Origin: Leucobacter luti | GTDB lineage: Bacteria; Actinomycetota; Actinomycetes; Actinomycetales; Microbacteriaceae | Length of the DNA: 64,000 nucleotides | Direction: 5' to 3' | Assembly (NCBI RefSeq): GCF_004217175.1 | Contig: NZ_SHKI01000007.1 | Coordinates: 124,001-188,000 of the forward strand | In this document: in pieces, positions 2,589 to 38,644 of the stretch | Layout of the letters: the number at the start of each line of letters is the position of its first letter | Position numbering within the stretch: the stretch's first letter is position 1 | Made by a program: the position numbers and the translations under genes | The notes under the pieces: model-generated | What the model was told of the DNA's origin: nothing | Databases searched by the model: none | What the model saw: the letters and a program-made list of their open reading frames with translations, nothing else

Positions 2589-3728
2589 GTGACCGACGTC
2601 TCCCCCGGGTACCCACGCGTACTCATCGCTGCGTTCCAGGGCTGGAGCGACGCCGGCGACGCCACCACGGAGGTGCTCCACCATCTCGGCGCGCTCGTGG
2701 ACGCCGAGGTGCTGCACGTGATCGGCTCCGAGGGATACGTCGACTATCAGGTGCACCGCCCCAAGATCTCGCTCGACGACTCCGGCGAGCGTATCCTTGA
2801 GTGGCCAGACACGCGGCTCTACGGGTCGATCCGACGCCCCGGCGCCGACGACCCCGCGGAGGCCGACGGGGAGACCGTGCGCCGGATCGACGGCGGGCGC
2901 GTCACCGAGCTCTTCCTGCTCTCCGGCGTCGAGCCCGCCCGCGACTGGCAGAGCTTCGCCGACGAGATCGTCGAGCTCGTCGACGTGTGGGCGATCGACA
3001 ACGTGATCATCCTCGGCGCGATGTTCTCCGATGCGCCGCACTCCCGCCCGGTCGTCACCACCGTGACCAGCGAAGACGCCGGCCGCCGCGAAGCGACGGG
3101 CGCCACGCGCAGCACTTACGAGGGACCGGCCGGCATCGCGACCGTCGTCGACCTCGCCCTCACCGAGGCCGGGATCGCCCCGGTGTCGCTCTGGGCGCAG
3201 GTGCCGCACTACGTGCACAGCACCCCGTCGCCCAAGGTGACGCTCGCGCTGCTCGACAAGCTCGAGGAGCTGCTCGACATCGTGATCCCGCGCGGCGAGC
3301 TGCTCGACCAGGCCACCGATTGGGAAGCGAACATCAACCGCATCGCGGCGGCCGACGAGGACATGTCGCGGTACATCCGCGGTCTCGAGGAGACCCGCGA
3401 CGAGGCGCTCGCTGCGGAGACGACGGGCGACGCGATCGCGGCGGAGTTCGAGAAGTTCCTGGAGGGCGGCGACCGCGCCGGTGGCGAGGGCGGGAGCGGC
3501 GGTGCCGGCTCCGGGTCAGGTTCCGAGGCCGGGACCGCGTCCGCGGACAGTGCCGATCGCGCCGCCGCGGGCCCCGGCAACTCGGCCGCGGACTCCGAAG
3601 ACTCGGCGGCGGATCCCGCAGACTCGGCGGAATCGAACGCGGGCGATTCCGGCGATGCACCGGGCGACGCTGCCGGCCGCGGCGAGGGCGACGACCCGGA
3701 GGCCGGCGAAACCCCTCCCGCCCGCTAG
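2589..3728 (+). CDS. PAC2-family protein
   Basis: A 379-residue protein whose first 280 residues form a PAC2 domain (opening with PRVLIAAFQGWSDAGDA). PAC2 domains occur in proteasome-assembly chaperones of archaea and eukaryotes; the actinobacterial role is not established. From about residue 290 the chain turns into a low-complexity acidic tail rich in Gly, Ser, Ala, Asp and Glu, built from imperfect repeats such as DSAADPADSAE, so it is likely disordered. It is divergent from the HAD gene, with 81 bases between the starts. The start is GTG after an AAGGAG-type ribosome site. Confidence 0.8.
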   Translation: MTDVSPGYPRVLIAAFQGWSDAGDATTEVLHHLGALVDAEVLHVIGSEGYVDYQVHRPKISLDDSGERILEWPDTRLYGSIRRPGADDPAEADGETVRRIDGGRVTELFLLSGVEPARDWQSFADEIVELVDVWAIDNVIILGAMFSDAPHSRPVVTTVTSEDAGRREATGATRSTYEGPAGIATVVDLALTEAGIAPVSLWAQVPHYVHSTPSPKVTLALLDKLEELLDIVIPRGELLDQATDWEANINRIAAADEDMSRYIRGLEETRDEALAAETTGDAIAAEFEKFLEGGDRAGGEGGSGGAGSGSGSEAGTASADSADRAAAGPGNSAADSEDSAADPADSAESNAGDSGDAPGDAAGRGEGDDPEAGETPPAR

Positions 3729-4365
3729 CCACGCGCGCCGCGATGCGGCTAGCGCAGTGCGTGCGTCGACCCTCGCCGCGCGCACCGTTGGGTGTCGGGT
3801 GTGCGCCGCGGGGCGACGGGCGTGCGCCGCGTCACGAGTGACGGGCTCGCGCACGAGTGGGGCTTCCCCCACGAGTGGAGGACTCGCGCACGAGCGTGCG
3901 GCTCCACACCCCCCGCGAAGCCGCACACTCGCGACGAAGCCGCACGCTCGTCGGGGTTTCGGGGCAAAGCCGACGATCGATGGCCCGGGAGGCGCAGCCC
4001 GTGCATCTGCCTGGCTGGCGGGCCAGCGCGCGCCGCGCAGCGACAGCGAATGTGAGCCCGGTGTGCGCCCGGACGGCACGCCGAGCCAGTCCGCCGGGCT
4101 CGCTCACGCGCGAGCGGGGCTTCCGCGCGCGAGCGGGGCTTCCGCGTTGCGCGTGGCGGGCTCCCGCACGAGTGGAGGATTCGCGCACGAGCGTGCGGCT
4201 CCACACCCCCAGCGAAGCCGCACACTCGCGACGAAGCCGCACGCTCGTCGGGGTGGGCCGCGGCGAGACGGGACACGGCGGCACGCGCGCAGCAGCCCGC
4301 ACGCGCGCAGCAGCCCGCACCCGCGCCGTAACGCCCCCGCGCCACCGCGCCCCGCGAGTCCGGGG
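3729..4365. repeat. Intergenic region with REP-like repeats between convergent genes
   Basis: A 637-base gap between the convergent PAC2 and mshC genes. Two 88-base copies of one element (3870-3957 and 4167-4254) differ at only two positions. Each has 14-base inverted arms (ACGAGCGTGCGGCT and its complement) around a loop with a further, slightly diverged AGCCGCACACTCG half. Shorter relatives (CACGAGTGG + GCTTCC) lie at 3840-3880 and a tandem GCGCGAGCGGGGCTTCC pair at about 4110-4145. A tandem of an 18-base GCACGCGCGCAGCAGCCC unit is at about 4282-4318. No supported gene is present. The same core recurs at 15411-15490. Confidence 0.75.
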
Positions 4366-24994: not shown

Positions 24995-26273
24995 CCGCAG
25001 CAACCAAACGATCCCCCGCCCGCCACCGCGGGGCCGCGGCGCTCGCGGCCCTCGTCGCGGGGCTTACCGCGATCTCGCTCGCCGGGAGCAGCACCACGGC
25101 GGCGTACACCGATTCGGCGTTCACGCACACCGAGGCCCTCACCGCGCAAATCCATCTGCCGTTCAAGACCGGACTCTCCGGGGCACGCTCGGTGGACACC
25201 GGCGCGGGCGTCGGGAGCGACGGGAACGCGTACGTGTGGGGCCGCACCAACATGAAGATGGCCGGGACCGTGGCGGGCGGCACCTGGCAAGACGCCACGC
25301 GGGTCGGCGGTCTTCCAGAGGGTGAGATCACAGCGGTGACCGGCCAGATCTACGGGTTCAACGCGCTCCAGCGCAACGGCGAGGTGTGGGGGTGGGGCTT
25401 CAACCCGGAGCGCGACGGCACGAGCGCACCACGGCCGGACAACCGGCCCGAGCGCATCAGGATCGGCACCGCCTGGAGCGGCGGCGGGGCGGTGCTCAGC
25501 GACGTCTCGCTGATCAGCGCCACCGAGTTCGCCGGCGCCGGGATTCGCGGCGACGGCACGGTGTGGTCGTGGGGCGTGGCGTCGTACGGCGGAAGCCCTA
25601 GGGACGGCGCGCACCAGGTGCCCGGGTTGCCGGATCCGCTCGCGAACGACGGCGAGCGGTTCCCGGTCTACATCAGCGGGGCGTACCGAAACTTCTGGGT
25701 CATCCTGAACAACGGCGAGGTCTGGCACTGGGGCAGCTCGAGCTCAACTCCCCGCGCCGACGGAAATTCCGTCGGGACGGCCCGCATGTCGACCGCCCTC
25801 GCCCGTGGTTCAAGAGCGCGGTGGGCCCGGGTGACCCCCACATCACCCGCCTCGTCGGCGGCATCAACATGGGGCTCGCGGTCCTCTCAAACGGCCGCGT
25901 GCTCACCTGGGGTGGCGGCGCACGCATCGCCGGGCGGCCCAGGCCGCCAGCTCCGGGCGCGCCCGGCCTCGTGAGCGAGGCATCGCTGAGCAACATCCAG
26001 GAGGCAGTGAGCGGCTTCACCGGTGCGCTGCTGTTGGACGGCGACGGCAATCTCTTCGGCTACGGCGCGTCTGATGACTACGGGGGAAACCCACAAACAC
26101 CCGTGCTGCTCGGCACCCAGGTCGTGCAGATGATCGCGGGCCAGGGCTACTACATCTGGCGCACCGCGAACGGTGAGTTCTGGGGGAAGGGATACAACCC
26201 CCAGGGCGCCATCGGCGGACCGCGCGGCGGCGCTCTGCGCCAGATGACCCTCAACCTCTGGATCCTGAACTGA
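24991..26273 (+). pseudogene. RCC1-repeat exported protein, frameshifted (locus A)
   Basis: Opens with an alternate-type signal (SSTTAAYTDSAFTHTEA), then RCC1-like repeats (GNAYVWG, GEVWGWG, GTVWSWG, GEVWHWG). At about 25755-25800 the frame shifts. The continuation, from GPGDPHITRLVGG onward with GRVLTWG and GEFWGKG, is in the -1 frame and runs to a stop at 26273 without interruption. Either a single-base indel, a sequencing error, or frameshifting; no canonical slippery heptamer was seen. The locus B RCC1 gene is intact. Confidence 0.75.
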
Positions 26274-26317
26274 TGCGCGGCGTCTCCGCCGACGCGCCAG
26301 GAGAAAGGCACAGCACC

Positions 26318-27013
26318 ATGACCGATCGGACTTCGCTCCCCGCCCGTCTCTCGCGCTGGCTCCGCAGCCCGCGAACCATCCGGATCAGCGGCGGGAAGCG
26401 CATCGCGCTCGCGAGCGGGGGCGTGCTCCTCGCCGCTGCCGCAGCCACACTCGCAAGCTTCACCGACGTTGCAAACCTCAACCTCGGCAACGGCTCCGAC
26501 GGAAGCGGGATCGGCAACCCCAACCGCTTCGACATCGCGGTGGTGCTCCCGGACGGGACCGTCGAGCAGGCCGACGACGACGCCGGCTACAACTGGGAGG
26601 TCCCCTGGGCTGAGACCCTGATCCCGGGTGGCTCAATCACCACGTCGATCCCGCTGTTCAACAACACCCGCGACATTCAGGCCGCCGTCGCCGTGTCGAT
26701 CGAACTCCGCAACGGCGATGGCACCGTTGCGGACCACCCAAACATCACGAAGTTTCTCCGTTTCACCGCGGCGCGCGACGGCGAAGAGCTGTTCGCGGAC
26801 AAGCCCTGGGCCGAAGCGCAGGCCGACTTTGGGACGCTCGCGGCGCGCGAGGCCGATCCGCTCAAGCCTGGCGAGGTGTACACCGCAGCCGCGGCGGGGA
26901 GCGTGGGCACGCTCGACCTCACGATCGCGTATCTGGATGAGCCCGAGACCGTCGACTACAACGGCGGCCAGTCAGCGTTCCGCGTCCACTTCGGCGCGGA
27001 GTCGACACGCTAG
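26318..27013 (+). CDS. SipW-dependent-type exported protein, second major subunit (locus A)
   Basis: 231 residues. A long basic N-region, one hydrophobic segment and ASFTDVANLNLGNG, almost the same signal end as the 22400 gene (FTDYANLNLGNG), followed by GIGNPNRFDI against GIGGDNRFNI. The two are paralogues within one operon. No Cys; beta-rich. The start at 26318 has GGAGAAAGG; an ATG at 26273, overlapping the previous stop, is an alternative. Confidence 0.8.
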   Translation: MTDRTSLPARLSRWLRSPRTIRISGGKRIALASGGVLLAAAAATLASFTDVANLNLGNGSDGSGIGNPNRFDIAVVLPDGTVEQADDDAGYNWEVPWAETLIPGGSITTSIPLFNNTRDIQAAVAVSIELRNGDGTVADHPNITKFLRFTAARDGEELFADKPWAEAQADFGTLAAREADPLKPGEVYTAAAAGSVGTLDLTIAYLDEPETVDYNGGQSAFRVHFGAESTR

Positions 27014-27026
27014 GACGGAGACACAC

Positions 27027-27734
27027 ATGCGCACCGCGTACCGCGTCTTCAGAGCGACCGTGCTCAACGTCGCCGCCGCGCTCGGGCTCCTCAGCATCCT
27101 CGTGTTCACCGCGTCGCTCGCCTTCGACGTCCGCGCGCACAACGTGATCTCCGGGTCGATGGCGCCCGGGATCCCCACCGGGTCCCTGCTCCTCACTCGC
27201 CCCGTAGCGGCCGCCGATATCCGCACGGGAGACATCATCACCACCGAGCGCGCGAGCGGCAACGGCCTCGTGACGCACCGCGTGACCGGGATCCGAGAGA
27301 TCGAGAGCGCGAACGGCATCTACGAAATCACCATGCGCGGTGACGCGAACACGAGCGACGATCCGCAGCCCTACACGATCCGAGAGGCGGGAGCCTACCT
27401 CACTCACATTCCCGTGCTCGGCTTCGTCGCCACGCTGCTGCAGACCCGGGCGGGGATCCTCACCGTGATCGCCGCCGGCAGCTTCCTGCTCGTCCTCTTC
27501 CTGTTTCCCGGGCGCGCACCCGAGCCGGAACCCGGGCTTGAGTCGGAACCCGGGCCCGAGCCGGAACTCGCACGCGAGCCGGAACCCGGACCCGGGTCGG
27601 AGTCCGGGCCCACTCCCGAGACACACGTCGCGGCCGCCGCGCACGGAGCCCACGCGGCAGAACCAACGGCAGAACCAACGGCAGCAGCGGCGGATACCGC
27701 TAGCTCGCGCTCCCAGCGAGCGCCGGCACCGTGA
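27027..27734 (+). CDS. Signal peptidase I, SipW/ER type (locus A)
   Basis: 235 residues. An N-terminal membrane segment, the catalytic Ser44 in SGSMAP, and His84 in VTHRV where bacterial LepB has Lys, then RGDANTSDD. This Ser/His layout is that of SipW, archaeal and ER signal peptidases. A second hydrophobic segment is near 135-155. The tail (about 157-235) is rich in Glu and Pro, with repeated EPEPG-type units, then Ala. It should process the alternate signals of its own locus. Confidence 0.85.
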   Translation: MRTAYRVFRATVLNVAAALGLLSILVFTASLAFDVRAHNVISGSMAPGIPTGSLLLTRPVAAADIRTGDIITTERASGNGLVTHRVTGIREIESANGIYEITMRGDANTSDDPQPYTIREAGAYLTHIPVLGFVATLLQTRAGILTVIAAGSFLLVLFLFPGRAPEPEPGLESEPGPEPELAREPEPGPGSESGPTPETHVAAAAHGAHAAEPTAEPTAAAADTASSRSQRAPAP

Positions 27735-28095
27735 AGCGCGGGGCCCGCGGCGGGCGCCGCTCGTCGGATTCCTCCGCGAGCGTGCCGTCGGGGGCAATGT
27801 GATTGAACATGTGCGCCACAACCGCGAGAATGTGCGGATCCTCGATGCGGTAGAGCTGCCGCCGCCCGTCGCGTCGCGCGGCGACCATTCCCGCGGCCCG
27901 CAGCTTTGCGAGGTGCTGACTCGTCGCTGGCACCGCGGCCCCCGTGCGCTCGGCAATCGTGGTGACGTCGTACTCGCCCTCCGAGAGCAGCCACACAATG
28001 TGCAGGCGGTGCGGCGTCGACAGCATATCGAAGGTACCGGCGGCGGCGGCCAGCTGTGCCTCGGTCACGGAGGGGGCTGGGTGTTCATCATCCAT
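27700..28095 (-). CDS. ArsR/SmtB-family metalloregulator with alpha5-type site
   Basis: 131 residues. The winged helix reads LSTPHRLHIVWLLSEG to ATSQHLAKLRAAGMV and the wing RRDGRRQLYRI. Asp86, His88, His99 and Asp103 (DPH, then FNH, then APD) match the spacing of the alpha5 site of SmtB/CzrA-type Zn (or Ni/Co) sensors; no Cys is present. Its C-terminus overlaps the end of the convergent signal peptidase gene by 35 bases. A perfect dyad lies 26 bases before its start. Confidence 0.85.
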   Translation of the reverse strand: MDDEHPAPSVTEAQLAAAAGTFDMLSTPHRLHIVWLLSEGEYDVTTIAERTGAAVPATSQHLAKLRAAGMVAARRDGRRQLYRIEDPHILAVVAHMFNHIAPDGTLAEESDERRPPRAPRFTVPALAGSAS

Positions 28096-28132: not shown

Positions 28133-28228
28133 CAGCGAACATTGTGACTATGCTGGCGTGGGGCGATCTCGCAGCTCCCACCGCGCGGCCGCCGAGAACC
28201 AGCGACGACCGACTGCGAGGGGGTGCCC

Positions 28229-29977
28229 GTGGCAACCTCAGGACTCCGCCGATACAGCGGGTACGACGCGACCCTGCGGGTGCGCGACCGCCGCCGCGCA
28301 GACATCGCCGTGTTCGCGGGAATCGCCGTGCTTTTCTGGCTCCTCGCATCCCTGGGACAGGGCCTCACTGAGCCGTTCGATCCCGCGCTCGCACCGGCGG
28401 CGGTTGCCACGGACCCGGCACTCCTCCCCGCCTACGCCGGGCGGTCGCTGCTGCGCATGTTCGCCGCGCTGGGGGCGTCCACGCTGTTCGCGTTCGGCGT
28501 TGCGCTCGCCGCAGCGCGCCTCCCCCGAGCCGGCAGGCTGATTCTCCCCGCGCTCGACGTGCTGCAGTCGGTGCCCGTGCTCGGGTTCGTATCCGTGACG
28601 ATTGGGTTCTGGCTCGCGCTGTTCCCCGGCACCGTCGTCGGGCTCGAGCTTGCCGCGGTGTTCGCGATCTTCACCAGCCAGGTGTGGAACATGACCTTCG
28701 CCTTCTACCAGTCGGTGATCACGCAACCGCGCGACCTCGTGGAGGCATCCCGCATGCTCGGGCTCACGGGGTGGCAGCGCTTCTGGACGCTCGACGCACC
28801 GCACGGCGCGTTTCCCCTCGTGTGGAACGGGATGATGAGTTTTGGCGGCGGCTGGTTTTTCCTGATCGCGTCAGAGGTGGTCACCGTGGGACACCGCACC
28901 ACCGCGCTCCCCGGGATCGGCTCCTACGCTGCCGCGGCAGCGCTCCGCGCCGAGCCGGCGCGACTGCTCCTCGCCGCGGGGGTGCTCGTGGTGGTGGTGG
29001 TCGGCGTGAATTTTTTCTTCTGGCGTCCGCTCACGGCGTGGGCGGAGCGCTTCCGCGGGGGCGATGTCGACGTCTCCGAGCCACAGCGGAGCATCGTGTT
29101 CGACCTGCTCCGGCGGTCAGCGCTCCCACGCCTCCTCGCAACAGCGCTGCGCGCGGGGAGCGACGCGATCGAGCGCACGTTCAGCCGCCCCGCTCGTGCG
29201 CCGCGGCGCCGGGCCTCCCCGCAGCGCCGGCGGCGAATCATCGACCGCGCTCTCGCGGCGCTCGCCTGGGCCCTCCTCGCGTGGGGCCTGATCGCGATGC
29301 TCGGCTTCGTCGCGGCAGACGCCGGGCTCGAGCAGTTCGTACTCGCGGGGGCGCTCGGGGCTGCCACGTGTGCCAGAGTCCTCGTGCTCCTCGTGTTCGG
29401 CACCGTGATCTGGGTCCCCATCGGCGTGTGGATCGGCCTGCACCCGCGCGTCACCCGCGTCGCCCAGCCAATCGTGCAGGTGCTCGCGAGCTTCCCCGCG
29501 AATTTTCTGTTTCCATTCTTCGCCCTCGCGCTCCTCACCACCGGGGTCAGCCTCGATCTCGGCGGCATTCTGCTCATGTCCCTCGGCGCGCAGTGGTACA
29601 TCCTGTTCAACGTCATCGCCGGCGCGGCGGCGATCCCCACCGACCTTCGCGAGGCGGCGCGGAGCCTCCGACTCGGGCGTCTCACCACCTGGCGCACCCT
29701 GGTCTTGCCCGCCGTGTTCGGCTCGTGGGTCACGGGAGCACTCACCGCCGCTGGCGGGGCCTGGAACGCGTCGATCGTCGCTGAAGTAGTGAGCTACGGT
29801 GGCACCACGCTCACCGCGACCGGGTTGGGCGCCTACATTTCGGAGGCGACTGCGCAGGGCGAGTTCGGCCGGGTACTCGTGGGCGTGCTCGTGATGAGCG
29901 CGTTCGTCGTGAGCTTCAACCGCCTCGTGTGGCGCCGCCTCTACGCGCTCGCCGAATCTCGTTTCTCACTCATCTGA
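28229..29977 (+). CDS. ABC transporter permease, tandem-fused, nitrate/sulfonate type
   Basis: A 582-residue protein with two permease halves (about 30-270 and 340-580), each with five or six helices and the EAA-type loop (LVEASRMLGLTGWQRFWTLDAP; LREAARSLRLGRLTTWRTLVLP). Bacterial nitrate/sulfonate permeases are normally about 270 residues, so this is a fusion. GTG at 28229 is chosen for its GAGGGG site. There is no binding protein gene nearby. It is divergent from ArsR and probably metal-regulated. Confidence 0.82.
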   Translation: MATSGLRRYSGYDATLRVRDRRRADIAVFAGIAVLFWLLASLGQGLTEPFDPALAPAAVATDPALLPAYAGRSLLRMFAALGASTLFAFGVALAAARLPRAGRLILPALDVLQSVPVLGFVSVTIGFWLALFPGTVVGLELAAVFAIFTSQVWNMTFAFYQSVITQPRDLVEASRMLGLTGWQRFWTLDAPHGAFPLVWNGMMSFGGGWFFLIASEVVTVGHRTTALPGIGSYAAAAALRAEPARLLLAAGVLVVVVVGVNFFFWRPLTAWAERFRGGDVDVSEPQRSIVFDLLRRSALPRLLATALRAGSDAIERTFSRPARAPRRRASPQRRRRIIDRALAALAWALLAWGLIAMLGFVAADAGLEQFVLAGALGAATCARVLVLLVFGTVIWVPIGVWIGLHPRVTRVAQPIVQVLASFPANFLFPFFALALLTTGVSLDLGGILLMSLGAQWYILFNVIAGAAAIPTDLREAARSLRLGRLTTWRTLVLPAVFGSWVTGALTAAGGAWNASIVAEVVSYGGTTLTATGLGAYISEATAQGEFGRVLVGVLVMSAFVVSFNRLVWRRLYALAESRFSLI

Positions 29978-29998: not shown

Positions 29999-31402
29999 AT
30001 GATCTTCGCCCAGCGCCCCACCCCGCCCGAGCGCGGCCACCGGGGGGCCGCCCACGAGCGCACCACGGATGCGGCGCTGCTGCGCGCCGCCGACGTCTCG
30101 CTGGCATTCCCGGCGGCCGAGGGCGGCGCGTTCGAGGTGCTCGGCGACGTGACCCTGACGCTCCGATCGGGCGAGATCGTGGCGCTGCTCGGCAAGTCGG
30201 GCTCCGGCAAGTCGACGCTGCTGCGACTGCTTGCGGGGCTCATCGAGCCGACGTCTGGCACCGTGTCGTATCGGGGCGCGCCCCTCTCAGGCCCCAACCC
30301 GGGCGCCGCGATGGTGTTCCAGTCGTTCGCGCTCATGCCCTGGCTCACCGTGCGCGAGAACGTTGAGCTCGGGCTGCGCTCCTCCGCACTCACGCGGGCC
30401 GCACGGCGCGCCCGCGCCAGCGAGGCGATCGACGCGATCGGGCTCGACGGCTTCGAATCTGCCTACCCGCGCGAGCTCTCGGGTGGGATGCGCCAGCGCG
30501 TGGGCTTTGCGCGGGCGTTCGTGCAGCACCCGGATGTGCTGCTCATGGACGAGCCGTTCTCGGCACTTGACGTGCTCACGGCGGAGAACCTCCGCGGGGA
30601 GCTGATGACCATGTGGGAGGCCCCCCAATTCCCCACGCGGTCAATCTGCCTCGTCACGCACAACATCGACGAGGCGGTGCTGCTCGCGGACCGGGTGGTG
30701 GTGCTCGGCGGAGCGCCGGCGCGGGTCGTCGCCGACGTCCAGGTTCGGCTCCCGCGGCCTCGGGACCGCCGCAGCCCCACGTTCGCTGCGACGGTCGACC
30801 AGCTCTACGCGGTGCTCACCGGGCGGGACCAGGCGGCCCCCGCCCCCGGTGCGTCTGCCGGGCCGCTCACGCACCCACTTCCCGCGGCGAGCGTCGGCGG
30901 GCTGGCCGGACTGATCGAGATCCTGGTCGCGCACGGCGGCCAGACCGATCTCCCGGACCTCGCCGACGAACTCGCGTTCGACGTCGACGACCTGCTGCCG
31001 ATCGTGGACGCGGCGCGCATGCTCGGGCTGCTCGACGTTGAGGGCGCGCAGGCGTTCATCACCGACACCGGGTGGGCCTGGCAGCTGGCCGATATCCAGG
31101 ACAGCAAGCGTCTCTTCGCGCGGCTCGCGGCCGCGCACGCGCCGCTCGTGGGCACGATCGTGCGCGCGCTGGAGCACAGCGCCGATGGGGCGCTCCGCGA
31201 CGAGTTCTTCCGAGACCTGCTGCGTCGAGGGTTCAGCGGCGAGGACGCGCAGAGCCAACTCGATCGCGCGATTGACTGGGGCCGCTACGGGGAGCTGTTC
31301 GATTACGACGCGGGAACCGGCGAGCTCGTGCTGAGTGAACTCGCCGCCGAGATCTCGGCGTTCCTCAGCGAGGAGAACGGGGCCGCGGGGGAAGCCGGCT
31401 GA
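29999..31402 (+). CDS. ABC transporter ATP-binding protein with C-terminal AAA-associated domain
   Basis: A 467-residue ATPase. Walker A is GKSGSGKST, signature LSGGMRQR, Walker B VLLMDEPFSALD and H-loop VTHNIDEAV, typical of SsuB/NrtD proteins. The last about 170 residues resemble the AAA-associated domain (winged-helix-like, with ISAFL near the end). Such fusions accompany fused permeases without a periplasmic binding protein. It starts 21 bases after the permease. Substrate unknown; the ArsR context suggests a metal-linked compound. Confidence 0.82.
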   Translation: MIFAQRPTPPERGHRGAAHERTTDAALLRAADVSLAFPAAEGGAFEVLGDVTLTLRSGEIVALLGKSGSGKSTLLRLLAGLIEPTSGTVSYRGAPLSGPNPGAAMVFQSFALMPWLTVRENVELGLRSSALTRAARRARASEAIDAIGLDGFESAYPRELSGGMRQRVGFARAFVQHPDVLLMDEPFSALDVLTAENLRGELMTMWEAPQFPTRSICLVTHNIDEAVLLADRVVVLGGAPARVVADVQVRLPRPRDRRSPTFAATVDQLYAVLTGRDQAAPAPGASAGPLTHPLPAASVGGLAGLIEILVAHGGQTDLPDLADELAFDVDDLLPIVDAARMLGLLDVEGAQAFITDTGWAWQLADIQDSKRLFARLAAAHAPLVGTIVRALEHSADGALRDEFFRDLLRRGFSGEDAQSQLDRAIDWGRYGELFDYDAGTGELVLSELAAEISAFLSEENGAAGEAG

Positions 31403-31440: not shown

Positions 31441-32337
31441 TTATCGCAGCTGGCCTGCGCGCTTCACGGTGTAGATGGGAAGCACGGCGAGCACGAACAC
31501 GCCGAGGATCTGCACCCAGCTCGAGTAATTCCAACTGAGCTCGGGCATGAACTCGAAGTTCTGGCCGTACCAGTTGATCAGGGTGGTGCCCGGGATCAGG
31601 ATCGCCCAGAGCACCGTGAAGATCTTCACAATGTTCAGGTCGCTCGTTGCGATCTGCTGCTCCGTGCCGCGAGCGTGGAACCGGTGGCGGTCGACCAGAA
31701 ACTCGGCCCGCCCGTGCAGCGCCTCGCCCTGCTGAATCAGCTCGTCGAGCTCAGCCCGCGGGACTGCGCCGGTGTCGGCGGCCTCGCGCCGCAGGAGGCG
31801 CGCGAGCTCAGTGAGACGGCCCACAGCGTAGGAGACCTGAGAGAGCACCTGGTCGATGTCGGCGAGCAGCATGTTCACACTCGGCAGGTCACTCACGCTG
31901 AACCCGCGCGCGGCGCTCGTCTGATTCGCGACCACCGCCACCGAGCTGCGCACACGGCGAATATCGGCCTCGATGTACCCGAGGCTCTCCGCGGCCCCCT
32001 GGAAACCGGCCCGCACCATCGCTACGCCGACCCCGACAGGACCGCGATCCGGCTCGCCCGCCCAGGCGAGTTCGGCCTCGACGTCCTGCAGCAGCGGCAG
32101 CCCGTCACCGGGCTCGATGGTGATGATCTCGTCTGGACGCAGCACCACGATAATCTCGGTGACCCGCGCGCCCTCGCCGTTCGGCGCCACGAAGCGGAGC
32201 GGAAACTTCTCCTCCGGCTCCCGCACGGCGCCTGAACCGAGAGACGCGGCGATCTCGCGCTCGGCGCGCTCAAGATCACCCAACTCAGTGACGAACACGC
32301 GCGTCCAGGTGCGGTGCGCCACTGTCCGCAGGGTCAT
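31441..32337 (-). CDS. CorA-like protein 1, GQN variant
   Basis: 298 residues with the CorA layout: an alpha/beta then helical cytosolic part and two C-terminal membrane helices. The signature after TM1 reads YGQNF (GQN at 258-260) where CorA has YGMNF; the MPEL loop is retained. In known CorA, GMN is needed for Mg2+ transport, so ion preference may differ. The start overlaps CorA-like 2 by four bases (ATGA), so it is co-translated. It is the last gene of the operon, convergent with the ABC ATPase. Confidence 0.8.
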   Translation of the reverse strand: MTLRTVAHRTWTRVFVTELGDLERAEREIAASLGSGAVREPEEKFPLRFVAPNGEGARVTEIIVVLRPDEIITIEPGDGLPLLQDVEAELAWAGEPDRGPVGVGVAMVRAGFQGAAESLGYIEADIRRVRSSVAVVANQTSAARGFSVSDLPSVNMLLADIDQVLSQVSYAVGRLTELARLLRREAADTGAVPRAELDELIQQGEALHGRAEFLVDRHRFHARGTEQQIATSDLNIVKIFTVLWAILIPGTTLINWYGQNFEFMPELSWNYSSWVQILGVFVLAVLPIYTVKRAGQLR

Positions 32338-33293
32338 CGCAGCCACCTCTTCCGCTTGATGTAGGCGAGCGGCACGAGCGCGAATACCGCGGTGGTGCCC
32401 ATCACGAACCACTCCCCCCACGGCAGCGCGAGCTCCGGCATGTTCGCGAAGTTCTGCCCGTAGTAGGCGGCGATCAGCGTGGGCGGCGTAAACACCGCGG
32501 TGACAACGGTAAACACTTTGATGATCTGGTTCTGCTTGAGATCAAGCGTGGTCATGAGCGACTGCTGGATGTTGCGGACCTTTGAGTGCTGAAACCGCGC
32601 GTGCCGCCGCCCGCCCTGAATATCGGACAGCAGGGTGGAGTACGCGGCACTCGAGCCGCCGCTCGCCCGACGCACGCGCCGCGCAGCGCGCTCAAGCATG
32701 AGCTGCCCCTGCACCGTGCGCGCGATGAGCTCCTCAGCACCCCCGAGCGAGACGGCGGTCTGGGCGATGTCGGCAACACCGACCTGCCTCCCTTCGAACC
32801 GGTACCCGCCGCTGCTGTCCACGGCGTCACTCGCGAGCTGGTTCAGCAGGAGCGACGTGCGATCCACGGTGTTCTGCATGGCATCGTTGAGCCCATCGAT
32901 GATGAGCAGCAGCGCCTCGCGGCTACTCGCCGCCTCCGGGAGCTGCTCCACTCGCAGCTGAGCGGTGGCCAGCGCAGCGACGGGGTGGTCCGGCTCCACG
33001 GTGATGAGGAGATCATCGGTGAGCGCAACGACGATCCGCGCGCTCTCAAACACCGTTTCTCTCTGGGATCCCGCCTCCGTCGGCGCGGGAAGCGGGAGCT
33101 CGATCGGGAGGATCGTGAAGCCCGCAACGTAGACCGGGTGCTGCGTCGCGATGTGCAGCTCGAGGCCGTACTGGCGCTCAAGATTCGCGAGCATCGCCCG
33201 GTCGGAGGCCCGCACCCGGAGCCATCCGGTGCGCGGCAGCTCGGCTACCGCCGTGGCCGCGGTCTGCGCGGCCCCTGTGGTGTTCTCAGTCAT
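32334..33293 (-). CDS. CorA-like protein 2, GQN variant
   Basis: 319 residues. The same fold as its neighbours, with KQNQIIKVFTVVTAVFTPPTLIAAYYGQNF. The signature is GQN (279-281) and the loop NMPELALP. The Pro pair before YGQNF and the basic end KRKRWLR follow CorA. Sequence is closer to CorA-like 3 in the LKQNQIIKVF segment than to CorA-like 1. It starts at ATG 33293; upstream in-frame codons do not look coding. Confidence 0.8.
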   Translation of the reverse strand: MTENTTGAAQTAATAVAELPRTGWLRVRASDRAMLANLERQYGLELHIATQHPVYVAGFTILPIELPLPAPTEAGSQRETVFESARIVVALTDDLLITVEPDHPVAALATAQLRVEQLPEAASSREALLLIIDGLNDAMQNTVDRTSLLLNQLASDAVDSSGGYRFEGRQVGVADIAQTAVSLGGAEELIARTVQGQLMLERAARRVRRASGGSSAAYSTLLSDIQGGRRHARFQHSKVRNIQQSLMTTLDLKQNQIIKVFTVVTAVFTPPTLIAAYYGQNFANMPELALPWGEWFVMGTTAVFALVPLAYIKRKRWLR

Positions 33294-33354
33294 GGTGACG
33301 TCTTTCTGCAGTGTGGCCGGGCGAGCCGCCGCGGCCGAATCTGATGACCCGCGG

Positions 33355-33585
33355 TTACCCGAGGGTGAGGCCGTAGATGTGGAGGCCCGCGAAGCAGGCG
33401 ATGATGCCGGCGTACAGTACGACGACGGCCCAGATGATCTCGCGCTCAATCTTCGAGGTCTTGGGTCGCTCGAGCTCCTCGCCCGGCGCGCGGCCGTCGG
33501 GCCGGGCATCCAGGTTGTTCAGCTCGAGGCGTGAGCTCCACACGTTCGGTGCGGTGCGGTTGCTCGGCAGGTTCTGGGTGGTCAT
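33355..33585 (-). CDS. Small membrane protein (GLHI-YGL family) a
   Basis: 76 residues: a polar N-terminus, one membrane helix at about 50-70 and the end GLHIYGLTLG. The GLHI...YGL pattern recurs in the other small protein of the operon (GLHIGNYGLET). It lies 61 bases upstream of CorA-like 2. It may be a partner of the CorA-like channels; no family is recognised. Confidence 0.65.
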   Translation of the reverse strand: MTTQNLPSNRTAPNVWSSRLELNNLDARPDGRAPGEELERPKTSKIEREIIWAVVVLYAGIIACFAGLHIYGLTLG

Positions 33586-33632
33586 GGTGAAATCCTTTGT
33601 GTGTGATCTGGTGAGAGCGTTGGCGGGACGCG

Positions 33633-34583
33633 CTAGCGGAGCCAGCCGCGACGCCGGACGTAGAGGAGTGGGAGCATCGCGAAGAAGAAGCTGAGCACGA
33701 TGATGGCCGGCTCGGCGTACTGCCACCCGAGGATCGGCATGAACTCGAAGTTCATGCTGTAGTAGGTGGAGAGCAGCATGACGGGCAGGAACACCGCGGT
33801 GACCACCGAGAACACCTTGATGATCTGGTTCTGCTTCACGTTGAGGGCGAGGTTGTTCGTCTGCTGGAGCAGTCGCACGCGGTCGTGCACGAACTCGATG
33901 TGCGGCTCGATCGCCTCGACGTCTTCAATCAGGCGGTCGAGGTCTGTGCGGTTGTCCCAGTCGCGGTCCCCCGTGAGCCCACGCAGGTGCCTGGCGGACT
34001 CGGCAAGCACGAGCTGGCTCTCCATGCAGTACGAGAGCAGCTCCTCCATGTCGGCGAGCTCCTGCTGGGTGTCGGTGACGTCGCTCACCCCGAAGTCACG
34101 CGCCTTCTTCGTTTCGAGGCTGCGCAGGATCGCGTTCGACTGCGCCATCATGTGCTCAGTGCCATCGTTCAGGCTCCCGACCAGCTGATCGGTGGTGTCT
34201 GCCACGCTCTCGATCACGCTCGCAGCGATCTCGATGGGACTGTCATTCTCCCGGCCATCGCGCTCCATCCGCGACAGGGCGAGGTCGAGCGGGGCGCAGC
34301 CGTCGAACGGCTCGAGCGTGATGATGCGGTCCGGTCCCACCGCGAGCACGATGCTCGTCTCGGTGAACGCGGCCGTGGTGCGGTCCACATACGAGACCGC
34401 GAGGACAATGTAGTCCCCGTTCTCACTGAACGGGCTACTCGCGGCCCCGTGCAGGTCGGCACCGTAGTCCTCCCGAATGCGGGTGAGGAGCTCCGGGTCG
34501 TTGCCCAGGACCCGCTGCCACCGCCCCCCGTTGAGGGACTCAACGTGTCCGGTGCGGACCGAGTGCTGATTCGTGTTGCTCAT
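33633..34583 (-). CDS. CorA-like protein 3, SMN variant
   Basis: 316 residues. Helical cytosolic domain, LNVKQNQIIKVFSVVTAVFL, and two C-terminal helices. The signature reads YSMNF (SMN at 276-278), so Gly of GMN is replaced by Ser; the loop is FMPILGW. ATG at 34583 is preferred; a GTG 12 bases upstream is possible. Second gene of the operon. Confidence 0.8.
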   Translation of the reverse strand: MSNTNQHSVRTGHVESLNGGRWQRVLGNDPELLTRIREDYGADLHGAASSPFSENGDYIVLAVSYVDRTTAAFTETSIVLAVGPDRIITLEPFDGCAPLDLALSRMERDGRENDSPIEIAASVIESVADTTDQLVGSLNDGTEHMMAQSNAILRSLETKKARDFGVSDVTDTQQELADMEELLSYCMESQLVLAESARHLRGLTGDRDWDNRTDLDRLIEDVEAIEPHIEFVHDRVRLLQQTNNLALNVKQNQIIKVFSVVTAVFLPVMLLSTYYSMNFEFMPILGWQYAEPAIIVLSFFFAMLPLLYVRRRGWLR

Positions 34584-34591
34584 GATGTCTC

Positions 34592-34936
34592 TCACTTGTA
34601 AAAGTTGCTGTGGGTGCCGGACGTCGAGGAGGTCCTCGTCTCGAGCCCGTAATTGCCGATGTGCAGGCCCATCGTGACGACCAGCGTGAGCACGGTACTC
34701 AGGAGCACCATGCGCGTGGTGAATCTCTCGTACCTAGTCGCGCGCCGGCGGCGCGGCGTTGAATGCTCCGACGCGAAGCTCTGGCTGCGCCAGACGCTTG
34801 CCGGTTTCTGCGCCGGATCCGGCGCCGGGGGCGGGATCGGTGCACCGTCGGGGCCGTGCGTGAGCCCCGCACCGGCGCGGCCCTCGATCGGGTGCACCCG
34901 CCAGAACAGGATGGGGTGGTGAATCGCTGCGGACAT
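34592..34936 (-). CDS. Small membrane protein (GLHI-YGL family) b, first gene of CorA operon
   Basis: 114 residues: a Pro-rich middle (about 30-45), a basic cluster PRRRRATR and one membrane helix at about 76-92 ending GLHIGNYGLETR. Same motif as the 76-residue protein at 33355. It is preceded by the M-box leader and a small RBS-proximal hairpin, so it is the first target of Mg2+ control. Confidence 0.65.
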   Translation of the reverse strand: MSAAIHHPILFWRVHPIEGRAGAGLTHGPDGAPIPPPAPDPAQKPASVWRSQSFASEHSTPRRRRATRYERFTTRMVLLSTVLTLVVTMGLHIGNYGLETRTSSTSGTHSNFYK

Positions 34937-34953
34937 ACCTCAGCTTCCTCTCA

Positions 34954-34968: not shown

Positions 34969-34986
34969 AGTTGGAATCGTGGATAT

Positions 34987-35146
34987 GCGCTTCCATGTCA
35001 GAGCTTCGGCATTGCGTGACGTAGCCAGATGGCAGCCACTTGGGATACCCCCTTAAGCCGAGGGAATCTGTCCTGATCTTGAACATCTCTCGATGCCGTC
35101 AGATCAGTGGCCTGTGTTCACGCAAGAGCCTCACCGAACGAAGCGC
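34987..35146 (-). ncRNA. M-box (ykoK) Mg2+ riboswitch
   Basis: A leader of about 160 bases matching the M-box by its conserved blocks. P1 pairs GCGCTTC (35146-35140) with GAAGCGC (34993-34987). Just inside are CGTTCGGTGAGGCTC (35138-35126) and, at the 3' side, GCCGAAGCTCTGAC (35010-34997), aligning with GGUGAGGCUC and AAAGCUCUAC of known M-boxes. A middle domain of about 90 bases resembles the GCUGCUG...AAUGGGUCAACAG part only loosely. In this class high Mg2+ lowers expression, which suits the CorA-like operon downstream. Confidence 0.85.
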
Positions 35147-35172
35147 GCTCTCCACCTTAGCGACACTCAATC

Positions 35173-35190: not shown

Positions 35191-35284
35191 GGAATGTGTC
35201 CTGATTTTGGGCACGCCACAGCACGCTACAGGCGCCCGTGGGCGACGGCTTGGCCGCCGCGCACGAGCGCCCAGAGCGTGCGGC

Positions 35285-35959
35285 TTAGGCGACCGCCGCG
35301 AGCGCCGCCCCCTGGACAAACCGCGCACCGCGCGGCGTCGCGAGCCGCAGCAGCAGCGCGGCAAGCTGGTCGAGCGCGATCGCGAGCACGGCGACCCAGA
35401 GCGCCCCGGCGATCACTCCGGACATCCCGAAGGCGACCTGGTTGAGGATGATGTCGCCGAGGCCACCGCTCCCGGCGATCGCGGCCACGGTGGCGGAGCT
35501 GACAGTGAGCACCACTGCGGTGCGCACGCCGCTGATGATCATCGGCACCCCGAGCGGCAGCTCGACGCGCAGCAGCACCTGGAGCGGCGTGAGCCCCATC
35601 CCGCGCGCCGCGCGGGTGAGATCGGCGTCGACCGAGTTGACGGCCTGAAACGCATAGCTCAGGATCGGCGGGAACGCGAGCACGAAGAGCGCGATGACCA
35701 CGTTCACGAGCCCGATGCCCACGAAGCCCAGCAGGATCGCGATCAGCGCGAGGCTCGGCAGCGCCCTGCCGATGTTCGTGAGGCTCACGGCGAGGAACTC
35801 GCCCCGGTGCAGGTGCCCGAGCCACACGCCAAGCGGGATACCGAGGAGCATCGCGGCGAAGATCGGGATCAAACTGATGAGCAGGTGCTCGCCGGTCTTC
35901 TGCATCATCAGGCCGAAGTGCTCGACAAAGAAGGGGAACGCCCCGAGAAACACGTCCAT
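35285..35959 (-). CDS. Osmoprotectant ABC transporter permease (OpuCD type)
   Basis: A 224-residue membrane protein with about six helices and the EAA-like loop AARGMGLTPLQVLLRVELPLG. It belongs to the OpuCB/CD (ProW-like) permeases of glycine-betaine, choline or carnitine uptake. Its ATG abuts the stop of the upstream permease gene, so the two are coupled. Last gene of the operon. Confidence 0.88.
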   Translation of the reverse strand: MDVFLGAFPFFVEHFGLMMQKTGEHLLISLIPIFAAMLLGIPLGVWLGHLHRGEFLAVSLTNIGRALPSLALIAILLGFVGIGLVNVVIALFVLAFPPILSYAFQAVNSVDADLTRAARGMGLTPLQVLLRVELPLGVPMIISGVRTAVVLTVSSATVAAIAGSGGLGDIILNQVAFGMSGVIAGALWVAVLAIALDQLAALLLRLATPRGARFVQGAALAAVA

Positions 35960-36678
35960 TACACCCTCACTCTCGTCCACGGCGTGAGTGCCCGACCGAG
36001 CAGCACCAGTGCCGCGTCGAACACGAACGCGAGCAGCACGGCGAGCAGCCCGGCACCGATGAACTGCGTGTTGAAGGGCGACGAGATCGCCTTCAGGATC
36101 GGCGACCCGAGCCCGTCGTCGACCACGAAGGCCGCAATCGTTGCGATGCTCACGGTCAGCACGGTCGCGATCCTGAGCCCGTTGATGATCGCCGGCAGCG
36201 CGGTGGGCAGCTCGACGCGGCGGAGCACCTGGCCGGGGCTGAGCCCCATCCCCACCGCGGCTTGCTTCACCGCGCTCGGTGTCGAGGCGAGGCCCGAGAG
36301 CACCGCCTGGAAAATGATCACGAGCGTGAAGCACACGAGCGCGATCTCGACGGTCACGAGAGTGAGGCCGGTGAACGGGACGAGCAGTTGGAAGAGCGCG
36401 AGCGGTGGCAGCGTGTACAGGAACGTGGCGACGAGCCCCACGGGACGCACCAGCCATTTTCTGCGGTACGCGAGGAGCGCCGCGGTGAACGCGATCGCGA
36501 ATCCGATCACCACCGCGATCACCGTGATCACGATGTGGCTCAGCAGCGGCGGGAGAAACACCGAGGACCACTGGGCCGCGAACCAGTCGGCACAGAAGAA
36601 GCCGTTGTTTACGACACAGTCAGAGGCAACGCCGTAATCGGGAATCACCGGGTCGCCGGCCGGCGCGAAGTCGCTCAT
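35959..36678 (-). CDS. Osmoprotectant ABC transporter permease (OpuCB type)
   Basis: 239 residues. A short exposed N-terminus with two Cys (DCVVNNGFFCADW), then about six helices and the loop AAVGMGLSPGQVLRRVELPTA. It starts with an ATGA overlap on the ATPase stop. It forms a heterodimeric channel with the next permease. Confidence 0.88.
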   Translation of the reverse strand: MSDFAPAGDPVIPDYGVASDCVVNNGFFCADWFAAQWSSVFLPPLLSHIVITVIAVVIGFAIAFTAALLAYRRKWLVRPVGLVATFLYTLPPLALFQLLVPFTGLTLVTVEIALVCFTLVIIFQAVLSGLASTPSAVKQAAVGMGLSPGQVLRRVELPTALPAIINGLRIATVLTVSIATIAAFVVDDGLGSPILKAISSPFNTQFIGAGLLAVLLAFVFDAALVLLGRALTPWTRVRV

Positions 36679-37703
36679 CCGGCGACCCCGGCGGTGTCGC
36701 GAGCGGCGGGCGGGTGCACCAGCTCGCCGAGCGTCACGAAGCGGCCGGGCGCCTCCGCGACGACGGCGCCGTCGGTGCCGGCGACCGACACGAGCGCGAG
36801 CGCCTCGCGCACCGTCATCGCCGCCGAGACCACGGGCCACTGCGCGGCGCCGGCGGGCAGCACCGCATCCGGCCGCACACGCTCGAGCACCTCACCGACC
36901 GTCGTGAGCGCGAGGCGCTTCAGCCCGCGCTCGGCGCCGAGGAACTCTGCGACGAACTCGTCGACCGGGTGCAGCAGGATCTGTTCGGGGGTGTCGAACT
37001 GGGCGAGGGTACCGCCGGGGCGCAGAATCGCGATCCGATCCCCCATCTTGATCGCCTCATCGATGTCGTGGGTCACGAACAGCGTGGTCTTCCCGACCCG
37101 CTGGTGGATCTCGAGGAACTCGTCCTGTACTGAGAGCCGGGTAATCGGGTCGAGCGCGCCAAACGGCTCGTCCATCAGCATCACGGGCGGGTCCGCCGCG
37201 AGCGCACGGGCGATACCCACGCGCTGCTGCTGCCCGCCCGAGAGCTGGGCCGGGTAGCGATCGAGCCAGTCTTCGACGGGAGTGAGCCCCACGAGTTCAA
37301 GGAGCTCGGCGGTGCGCGCCCGGATGCGCGCGCGGTCCCACTTCAGGATGCTCGGCACAATCGCGATGTTCTCGGCGACTGTGTAGTGCGGAAACAGGCC
37401 GGACGCCTGAATTGCGTAGCCAATCGTGCGGCGCAGCTCGATGGGCGCGAGGGTCATGATGTCTCGGCCGCCAATCCGGATGGTCCCGCTCGTCAGATCG
37501 ACGAGTCGATTCACCAGCTGGAGCGCCGTCGTCTTCCCGCCGCCCGAGGGCCCGACCAGACACACGAGCTCGCCCGACTTCACGGCGAGGTCGAGGGCGT
37601 CGAGCGCGGGCGCCCCCTGCCCCGGGTAGGTCTTGGTGGCCCGCTCGAAAGTGATCGACGAGTCCCCCGCGTGTTCGCTCATCGCGCGTGCGTGCTCGGT
37701 CAT
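36675..37703 (-). CDS. Osmoprotectant ABC transporter ATP-binding protein (OpuCA/ProV type)
   Basis: A 342-residue ATPase: Walker A GPSGGGKTTA, Q-loop YAIQASGLFPH, signature LSGGQQQR, Walker B VMLMDEPFGALD. A CBS-like C-terminal part is present from about residue 260 (VLERVRPDAV to TDGAVVAEAPG), the ionic-strength-sensing element in this family. The start at 37703 has AGGAG; ATG 37715, overlapping the SBP stop, is possible. Confidence 0.88.
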   Translation of the reverse strand: MTEHARAMSEHAGDSSITFERATKTYPGQGAPALDALDLAVKSGELVCLVGPSGGGKTTALQLVNRLVDLTSGTIRIGGRDIMTLAPIELRRTIGYAIQASGLFPHYTVAENIAIVPSILKWDRARIRARTAELLELVGLTPVEDWLDRYPAQLSGGQQQRVGIARALAADPPVMLMDEPFGALDPITRLSVQDEFLEIHQRVGKTTLFVTHDIDEAIKMGDRIAILRPGGTLAQFDTPEQILLHPVDEFVAEFLGAERGLKRLALTTVGEVLERVRPDAVLPAGAAQWPVVSAAMTVREALALVSVAGTDGAVVAEAPGRFVTLGELVHPPAARDTAGVAG

Positions 37704-37711
37704 CTCGCTCC

Positions 37712-38644
37712 TCATATCAGGTGGTTTTCTTGCAGGAAGACCTTGGCGACCTGCGCGGGGTCGAGTCGGTTGACCGCCGCCGCCGAATTCAGCGCACGGA
37801 TCGCGTCGACCGTGAGCAGCGAGTGCAGCTCGTTCAGAAACTCGGGCACGTCGTCGTCGACCGCATCGAACACCTCGGTGCGGATCAGCGGGACGACGTT
37901 CTGGAACCCGAAGAGCTTGCGGTCGTCTTCAAGCACGACGAGACCGGAGCGGGAGAGCTGCGGATCGGTGGTGAACACGTCAGCCGCCTGGATCTCGCCG
38001 CGCTCGATCGCCTGGTAGTTCAGCCCGATGCTCAGGGTCTTGAGCTCCATGTTGTCGAGCCCGTAGGTCTCAACGATCCCCTCGTAGCCCTGGCCGCCGG
38101 TCACGTTCTCCGGGTACGTGGAGTAGACAAAGTCTCCGATCCCCCGCAGATCCGACATGGTGCGGAGGCCGTGCTCCGCCGCGAATTCCTCGGTGACGGC
38201 GATCGCGTTCTTATTTTCGAATGGCGTCGCGTTGAGGGTGGTCACGCCGTGCTCGGCTTCCCACTCCCGCGCCCACTCGTACGTTGCCTCGGCCGAGTCC
38301 ATCAGCCGCTCCTCGCCGCCGAGCACGACGACGATCACGCCCGTGTACTCGGGGTAGATATCCACCTGCCCCGCTTGCAGGGCGGTGTTGATGATCTCGG
38401 TGGACCCCACGTTTGTCTTGAGTGAGACCGTGTAGCCGAGCGCCGAGATCCCCTGGGCGTAGAGCTCCCCCATGATCCAGCTCTCGGCGAAGCCCTTGGA
38501 ACCGATCGTGATGGTGCGGTCCTTGCCGGTGCCGGACGCCGCGGCGGGAGCGCAGCCGCTCAGCGCCGCAAGCCCGGCGGCCGCGCCGATCCCCCACAGG
38601 CCGAGCGCAGCGCGACGCGAGAGTTCGTGTCGGTGTTGTGTCAT
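37712..38644 (-). CDS. Osmoprotectant-binding lipoprotein (OpuCC type)
   Basis: 310 residues: a Tat-like RRAALGLWG, a lipobox LSGC at about 27-30, and the OpuAC/ProX binding fold from TITIGSKGFAESWIMGELYA through EYTGVIVV to EFLNELHSLL. This family binds quaternary ammonium solutes by an aromatic cage. First gene of the four-gene osmoprotectant operon; uptake protects against osmotic stress. Confidence 0.88.
   Translation of the reverse strand: MTQHRHELSRRAALGLWGIGAAAGLAALSGCAPAAASGTGKDRTITIGSKGFAESWIMGELYAQGISALGYTVSLKTNVGSTEIINTALQAGQVDIYPEYTGVIVVVLGGEERLMDSAEATYEWAREWEAEHGVTTLNATPFENKNAIAVTEEFAAEHGLRTMSDLRGIGDFVYSTYPENVTGGQGYEGIVETYGLDNMELKTLSIGLNYQAIERGEIQAADVFTTDPQLSRSGLVVLEDDRKLFGFQNVVPLIRTEVFDAVDDDVPEFLNELHSLLTVDAIRALNSAAAVNRLDPAQVAKVFLQENHLI

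Follow-up and report, generated by a model that had tools for sequence, protein, structure and literature searches.

The window analysed here is a stretch of 64,000 nucleotides (nt) from Leucobacter luti (contig NZ_SHKI01000007.1, positions 124,001 to 188,000). On its minus strand, between 34936 and 31441, lie five genes, not three, in the order smA–SMN–smB–GQN2–GQN1, preceded by a riboswitch aptamer of the Mg2+-sensing M-box family. Three of these genes encode CorA-family proteins without the GMN signature, and the two others encode small, probably single-pass membrane proteins. We lean, with moderate confidence, towards regarding this cassette as a multi-subunit, CorA-type Mg2+ importer induced by Mg2+ starvation. 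An earlier note on the range 31441–34936 had described three tandem CorA-like genes; the three do share a strand, but small genes precede the first and separate it from the second, and smA falls inside that range without having been mentioned.

The GMN filter of CorA and Mrs2 proteins is commonly taken to be all but unchangeable, and work on these channels has dealt mostly with homopentamers. Here evolution has replaced that filter in three partner genes together and retained the new forms throughout the cassettes compared; small membrane proteins have joined the set, and a Mg2+-sensing RNA stands in front of it. A single operon of this kind bears on what GMN is needed for and on whether CorA channels have accessory or mixed subunits, and single-pair relatives with a normal GMN offer an ancestor-like control.

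Gene set, filters and small proteins

All three larger proteins exceed the curated cut-off of the Pfam CorA domain (PF01544, 27 bits; scores in Table 1), and none reaches that of the NCBIfam corA equivalog TIGR00383 (44.8, 102.1 and 98.6 bits versus 200.75). The absence of GMN reported in the earlier note was borne out, and its positions are correct: S276-M277-N278 in the 316-amino-acid (aa) protein, G279-Q280-N281 in the 319-aa protein and G258-Q259-N260 in the 298-aa protein. GQN1 and GQN2 both have GxN at the end of the first transmembrane helix (TM1), and SMN has the Asn without the Gly. The note was also right that the MPEL loop after the filter is kept in two of the three, the third reading MPIL. 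A misplaced or misread motif, which it had named as something that would overturn its reading, is ruled out, the alignments fixing the position of the motif exactly.

A pattern-based scan of GTDB species genomes with SMN as the query, which reaches close relatives only and is not exhaustive, yielded eight further loci, seven from Leucobacter and one from Actinotalea caeni. Two more cassettes (G018 and G020) came from later searches; their genes were chosen by motif and show presence only. The five genes occur in the same order in all eight scanned loci. GQN2 and GQN1 are joined by a 4-nt overlap (ATGA in the window) in 9/9 loci including the window, while the remaining intergenic gaps measure 8–75 nt. 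Filter and loop are identical throughout the 11 cassettes compared (the window, the eight scanned loci and the two later ones), with SMN/MPIL in 11/11 and GQN/MPEL in 11/11 for each of the GQN proteins, so a chance change of the motif is excluded. The ratio of nonsynonymous to synonymous substitution rates (dN/dS) ranged from 0.013 to 0.267 over 25 comparisons (five locus pairs by five genes, dS 0.36–1.31), a set that excludes Actinotalea and the two later loci, and the five genes are under purifying selection. Mean column identity of the CorA proteins is 0.95–0.99 across TM1 plus the loop and 0.82–0.89 across the second transmembrane helix (TM2).

AlphaFold2 models of single chains of GQN1 (pLDDT 78, pTM 0.67, 17 alignment rows) and SMN (pLDDT 79, pTM 0.68, 16 rows) both show the CorA layout, with a cytosolic alpha/beta domain, a long stalk/TM1 helix and a second, C-terminal transmembrane helix. 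In a Foldseek search of the PDB the top match of both was Thermotoga maritima CorA (E-value 4.4e-9 for GQN1 and 5.7e-11 for SMN). TM-scores against single chains, normalised by query length, were moderate (0.41–0.66 over the best 50 matches per model). Solved CorAs were also found by sequence with the SMN and GQN1 profiles.

Neither smA nor smB matches a Pfam or NCBIfam family. Each has a single hydrophobic stretch with positive charge before it (judged by eye), so both are likely to be single-pass membrane proteins with the N-terminus inside. An smA orthologue is present at the same place in 8/8 loci, with dN/dS of 0.06–0.27 in five comparisons. Across the 11 cassettes, smB shows an identity of 0.95 in its transmembrane part versus 0.46 in its N-terminal part, and the mean per column for smA is only 0.66 in the helix and 0.84 in the tail; the smB helix is thus as constrained as the pore helices, and the smA helix is not. 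That the two are chance open reading frames (ORFs) was rejected on their conserved position, the conservation of transmembrane part or tail, and dN/dS well below 1. Derivation from a truncated CorA TM1 found no hhalign support in the smB–GQN2 and smA–SMN comparisons (two of six pairings), and the hhalign match of smA to smB was not significant (2.6% probability).

Riboswitch leader, relatives and distribution

The cassette leader matches the M-box model (RF00380) at 35149–34984 over its full length (1–169), scoring well above the gathering score of 44 bits (E 1.3e-29), and ends 47 nt before smA. The aptamer assignment rests on this covariance model, since folding of the leader RNA gave a z of only -1.37. 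Under strict filters, by which weak examples can be lost, M-boxes were found in 13 of the 54 genomes of the genus. All ten genomes of the genus with the cassette have one about 1.4–1.5 kb upstream of smB and in its orientation, which places it before smA. Each of 11 other M-boxes in the genus is followed on its own strand, though not necessarily as the nearest gene, by an MgtA-like (seven) or MgtC-like (four) frame that opens within about 0.5 kb. The best NCBIfam match was a Mg2+-translocating P-type ATPase (five MgtA pieces) or MgtC (one), below cut-offs, the ATPase pieces being truncated by locus ends, and the remaining five assignments rest on sequence likeness. Published work places the M-box almost always upstream of Mg2+ transporter genes, a logic that led to a new Mg2+-transporting relative of Nramp (PMC4072509).

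The Shine-Dalgarno sequence TGAGAGGA precedes smA in 8/8 Leucobacter leaders compared, and inspection by eye of the 61–74-nt stretches before smA in eight leaders revealed no terminator-type T run. Translational or Rho control of the cassette leader is plausible; an M-box of Mycobacterium tuberculosis for which such control has been reported also governs a small ORF (PMC12810186).

The closest relatives outside the cassettes include three pairs (L033, L090 and L091; Table 1), in which a small gene with one transmembrane helix stands directly upstream of a cassette-clade CorA gene reading YGMNF-MPEL. No name was found for the small protein of these pairs, for which a Pfam or NCBIfam scan was not made. 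When 1814 frames were searched with a profile built from 11 smB proteins, the L091 small protein ranked directly after smB itself (E 1.2e-4); the other two were not among the matches listed. Conversely, a profile of the three pair proteins gave as its best other matches two smB proteins, from Actinotalea (E 0.018) and the window (E 0.072). With the smA profile, none of the pair proteins scored significantly (L091 at E 5). By eye, a Glu-x21-His spacing, which may be a matter of chance, is common to smA, smB and the three pair proteins, and a Ser/Thr-rich tail is common to smA and the pair proteins. L091 holds an additional, ordinary CorA nearby.

A rapid maximum-likelihood analysis covered 65 proteins, two GQN1 rows having been shortened at the N-terminal end; it ran with no bootstrap and gave a long-branch warning. 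In the resulting tree, SMN, GQN2, GQN1 and the GMN type of the pairs each formed one clade, with support of 99, 97, 99 and 99, respectively, in the Shimodaira–Hasegawa-like approximate likelihood ratio test (SH-aLRT). Together with genes from a Serratia plasmid they were set apart from the ordinary CorAs of the genus and from lone GQN CorAs (SH-aLRT 100), and the tree gives no resolved branching among the four clades. The Serratia marcescens plasmid pET_W2 (L032, 4381–6349) carries a GQN2-like gene whose start is cut by a transposase insertion, followed by a whole GQN1-like gene reading YGQNF-MPEL; both branch outside the actinobacterial genes, and the branch of the GQN1-like gene is long. The same locus has an Rfam match to isrC RNA (146 bits, 3701–3823) within an annotated transposase gene. 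An origin from phage or plasmid was considered and rejected: no relative was found in viral contigs with queries A3 or A4, and smA and smB had no match in plasmids. SMN had matches in 131 plasmid records; most were distant, ordinary CorAs, and the close ones came from Streptomyces and Serratia. The cassette probably arose from a small-protein–CorA pair, to judge from these sequence relationships. On the simplest history the pair would have been duplicated, one small gene lost and the filter of each of the three CorAs altered, with the original pair surviving in a few other actinobacteria.

Within the genus, smB is present in 10 of 54 genomes. A sample of 299 genomes of the family, with at most 18 candidates per genome scored, gave two matches, the window's own genome and a weak one in G252 (E 7e-4); the latter was set aside, the other four cassette proteins being unmatched in its 3.2-kb piece. 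Of 396 genomes of the order, five contained the DNA pattern for YGQNFxxMPE, namely the window's genome, G496 with a cassette, and three whose lone GQN CorA is of a different kind. The match identities of the G496 cassette equal those of the Actinotalea locus, and the two probably belong to the same species. In the class, a search of 394 genomes with the GQN2 profile (E up to 1e-40) gave three matches, in G1210, G1339 and the window's own genome. The CorA of the Streptomyces plasmid found only the window's genome among 296 of the phylum (E up to 1e-30), and the G1339 CorA found only itself in 151 genomes of its family (E up to 1e-60). With so few matches at the level of order, class, phylum and family, the cassette-type CorA group is rare and scattered. 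None of the open-access papers listed in literature searches dealt with GQN or SMN motifs of this kind or with such cassettes.

Five of the ten cassette genomes of Leucobacter show no CorA match beyond the cassette trio (G007, G018, G028, G029 and G038, the last 74% complete), and the window's genome has two further CorA matches. Among 25 CorA loci retrieved from the genus outside its cassettes (L001, L002 and L057–L079), 24 read YGMNF-MPEL; the search gave no match in L061, and none in the fragment locus L080. In another actinobacterial genus (f18/g110), a CorA that has GQN but is otherwise ordinary is the only CorA match in four of five genomes (L096, L097, L099 and L100), the fifth holding one GMN CorA and a second CorA match whose filter was not read. 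Since three of these proteins group with ordinary CorAs in the tree, their GQN probably arose independently, and genomes in which it is the only CorA match suggest that GQN can work without partner subunits.

Proposed function and its alternatives

In solved structures the Mg2+ in the filter is held by main-chain oxygens of Gly and side chains of Asn (PMC10404273, PMC11919701), and the change from Met to Gln alters a side chain that is not listed among the Mg2+ ligands in the passages drawn on from these two sources. As the Asn is kept in all three cassette proteins, the argument from a missing GMN to a loss of Mg2+ transport is weak. The earlier note's statement that GMN changes abolish transport goes too far, given that a maize AMN variant partly complements (PMC9948656). 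A Glu of Mrs2 has been proposed to gather Mg2+ at the pore mouth (PMC11919701); SMN lacks the Glu of MPEL, and its equation with the Mrs2 residue would be our own match by position.

The mechanism that we propose begins with low cytoplasmic Mg2+, at which the M-box leader, observed as an aptamer in the appropriate position, would permit expression of smA and the genes downstream. The three diverged CorA subunits would then co-assemble, most simply as mixed pentamers, around a single pore whose ring of filters combines GQN and SMN in place of five GMN. With the Asn kept and a backbone carbonyl remaining at the Gly position, Mg2+ is still the likely cargo; such a ring should be able to bind it, with an altered chemistry at the mouth. 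The constant linkage of smA and smB leads us to infer that they serve as single-pass subunits, which may assemble with, gate or protect the channel. Mixed species have a precedent in the CorA123 proposed for Cupriavidus (PMC6972854). A more specific version, an obligate hetero-pentamer built from all five genes, in which the smA and smB helices replace or pack against pore helices and a GQN/GQN/SMN filter makes an asymmetric CorA channel that evolved stepwise from the small-protein–CorA(GMN) pair, seems improbable to us.

Several observations weigh against the proposed Mg2+ importer. MgtE occurs in 46 of the 54 genomes of the genus, including all ten with the cassette, so the cassette is an addition and not the only route for Mg2+. 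The Actinotalea cassette has no M-box, which means that Mg2+ control is not universal, and the M-box is also absent before the three GMN-type pairs. Neither small gene was found beside the Serratia plasmid genes, showing that the set is not kept whole everywhere. In addition, no significant score links smA to any of the other small proteins, and conservation of its helix is lower than that of the TM2 helices. Published GMN changes often impair Mg2+ transport: rice AMN and GIN variants fail in yeast and maize AMN works in part (PMC9948656), and a triple-alanine mutant of Mrs2 GMN is impaired.

The earlier note had left open another cation, a regulatory role or hetero-oligomers. Hetero-oligomers of a Mg2+ system are favoured among these by the five-gene linkage in 8/8 loci, the 4-nt overlap in 9/9 and the M-box; less likely are a different metal and a purely regulatory function, because the switch family senses Mg2+ and half of the cassette genomes show no CorA besides the cassette's. 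A different account, on which the three CorAs would form separate homopentameric channels, co-expressed because Mg2+ starvation demands more than one uptake route and differing in affinity, and the small proteins would stabilise only, as MgtS and MgtU do (PMC13209247), deserves a hearing, although we consider it rather unlikely. The lone GQN CorAs of f18/g110, whose filter probably works without partners, would fit it well, as would the whole GQN1-like gene that the Serratia plasmid carries without the full set. It sits poorly with the fixed order of five genes and their overlap, and with the ordinary GMN carried, in the surveys made, by relatives outside the cassette genomes and the Serratia plasmid.

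That the altered filters pass a divalent metal other than Mg2+ (Co, Ni, Zn or Mn), despite a leader of a Mg2+-sensing family, is quite improbable in our view. The cassette M-box fits its family over the full length, the other M-boxes of the genus precede MgtA- or MgtC-like genes, and Asn is kept in three proteins and Gly in two of them. On the other side, GxN variants have been linked to other cations (PMC9948656, PMC6972854) and one mycobacterial M-box class has been named manganese-type (PMC12810186). An ATP-binding cassette (ABC) system adjoins the cassette in the genus, together with an ArsR/SmtB regulator in the window, but its genes are absent from 10.9 kb surrounding the Actinotalea cassette. 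A non-conducting role for the three proteins, as sensors or as regulators of other Mg2+ transporters, seems very unlikely to us. Such a role would account for a filter changed in all three and an MPEL lost in SMN, and MgtE is at hand as a possible target; against it, half of the cassette genomes show no further CorA as a target, and the near-invariant TM1 and loop fit a working pore.

Several known systems come close to the cassette. With CorA and other 2-TM-GxN (MIT) channels such as T. maritima CorA it shares domain, fold, topology and the filter Asn, and two of its proteins share the MPEL loop; it differs in having GQN/GQN/SMN in place of GMN, three paralogues and two small single-pass proteins per operon, and scores below the TIGR00383 cut-off. 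ZntB and other GxN variants (GVN, GIN) likewise show a natural change at the middle position, with Val or Ile instead of Gln, and the cassette has in addition one subunit with Ser for Gly. A ZntB model was not among the NCBIfam matches of the cassette proteins, the presence of such a model in the library not having been checked. Cupriavidus metallidurans also has several CorAs per cell (CorA1–CorA3), CorA123 being named for Co2+ import (PMC6972854); operon linkage, a riboswitch and small partners, all present in the cassette, go unmentioned in the passages drawn on here. The leader belongs to the same riboswitch family as those controlling mgtE, mgtA, corA and NrmT, but the first gene under its control encodes a small membrane protein, for which the small ORF of M. 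tuberculosis (PMC12810186) offers a comparison. MgtS and MgtU, small membrane proteins tied to the Mg2+ transporters MgtA and MgtB (PMC13209247), resemble smA and smB in that respect; they serve another transporter family, and both cassette proteins are larger than the 31-aa MgtS.

Neighbouring genes

Table 1 Features of the window and of the small-protein–CorA pairs (TM, transmembrane)
Feature	Sequence	Position	Strand	Description
smA	window	34592..34936	-	114 aa; one hydrophobic stretch, TM helix by eye; tail TSSTSGTH
SMN	window	33633..34583	-	316-aa CorA-family protein; filter SMN, loop MPIL; PF01544 132.4 bits
smB	window	33355..33585	-	76 aa; one hydrophobic stretch, TM helix by eye; highly conserved
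GQN2	window	32334..33293	-	319-aa CorA-family protein; filter GQN, loop MPEL; PF01544 119.6 bits
GQN1	window	31441..32337	-	298-aa divergent CorA-family protein; filter GQN, loop MPEL; PF01544 61.1 bits
M-box (ykoK leader) Mg2+ riboswitch aptamer	window	34984..35149	-	cassette leader; RF00380 130.4 bits
Shine-Dalgarno of smA	window	34945..34952	-	GAGAGGAA
ABC ATPase with AAA_assoc_C domain	window	29999..31402	+	convergent to cassette; PF00005 and PF09821
Fused two-domain ABC permease	window	28223..29977	+	partner of the ATPase; PF00528, two stretches
ArsR/SmtB-type metalloregulator	window	27700..28095	-	divergent from ABC genes; NF033788 81.1 bits, cut-off 55
Small-protein and GMN CorA pair	L033	4675-5885		Streptomyces plasmid
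Small-protein and GMN CorA pair	L090	5955-7146		G1210
Small-protein and GMN CorA pair	L091	5488-6763		G1339

The ABC ATPase convergent to the cassette was found in nine of the ten cassette genomes (the one missing it is 74% complete) versus 1 of the 44 others of the genus, in a search with a limit of E 1e-80 that scored 30 candidates per genome. The ABC genes are absent from 10.9 kb around the Actinotalea cassette, and we therefore treat the system as a neighbour, probably separate and co-transferred and possibly cooperating. Its candidacy as an essential part of the importer was rejected on the same absence, co-transfer explaining the co-occurrence equally well. Among proteins of at least 150 aa in the outer flanks of the window, a single match was obtained across ten cassette loci (L094, on the ABC side) at E up to 1e-20 and more than 50% identity; for the eight scanned loci this comparison covers the side upstream of the cassette only, the loci ending near the ABC genes.

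A further ABC system at 35226–38644, with an OpuAC substrate-binding protein (PF04069) and an ATPase, adjoins the cassette; the substrate-binding protein was unmatched in the eight scanned loci. The interval 26273–27734 holds a 246-aa protein with no Pfam match followed by an ORF that we read as signal-peptidase-like.

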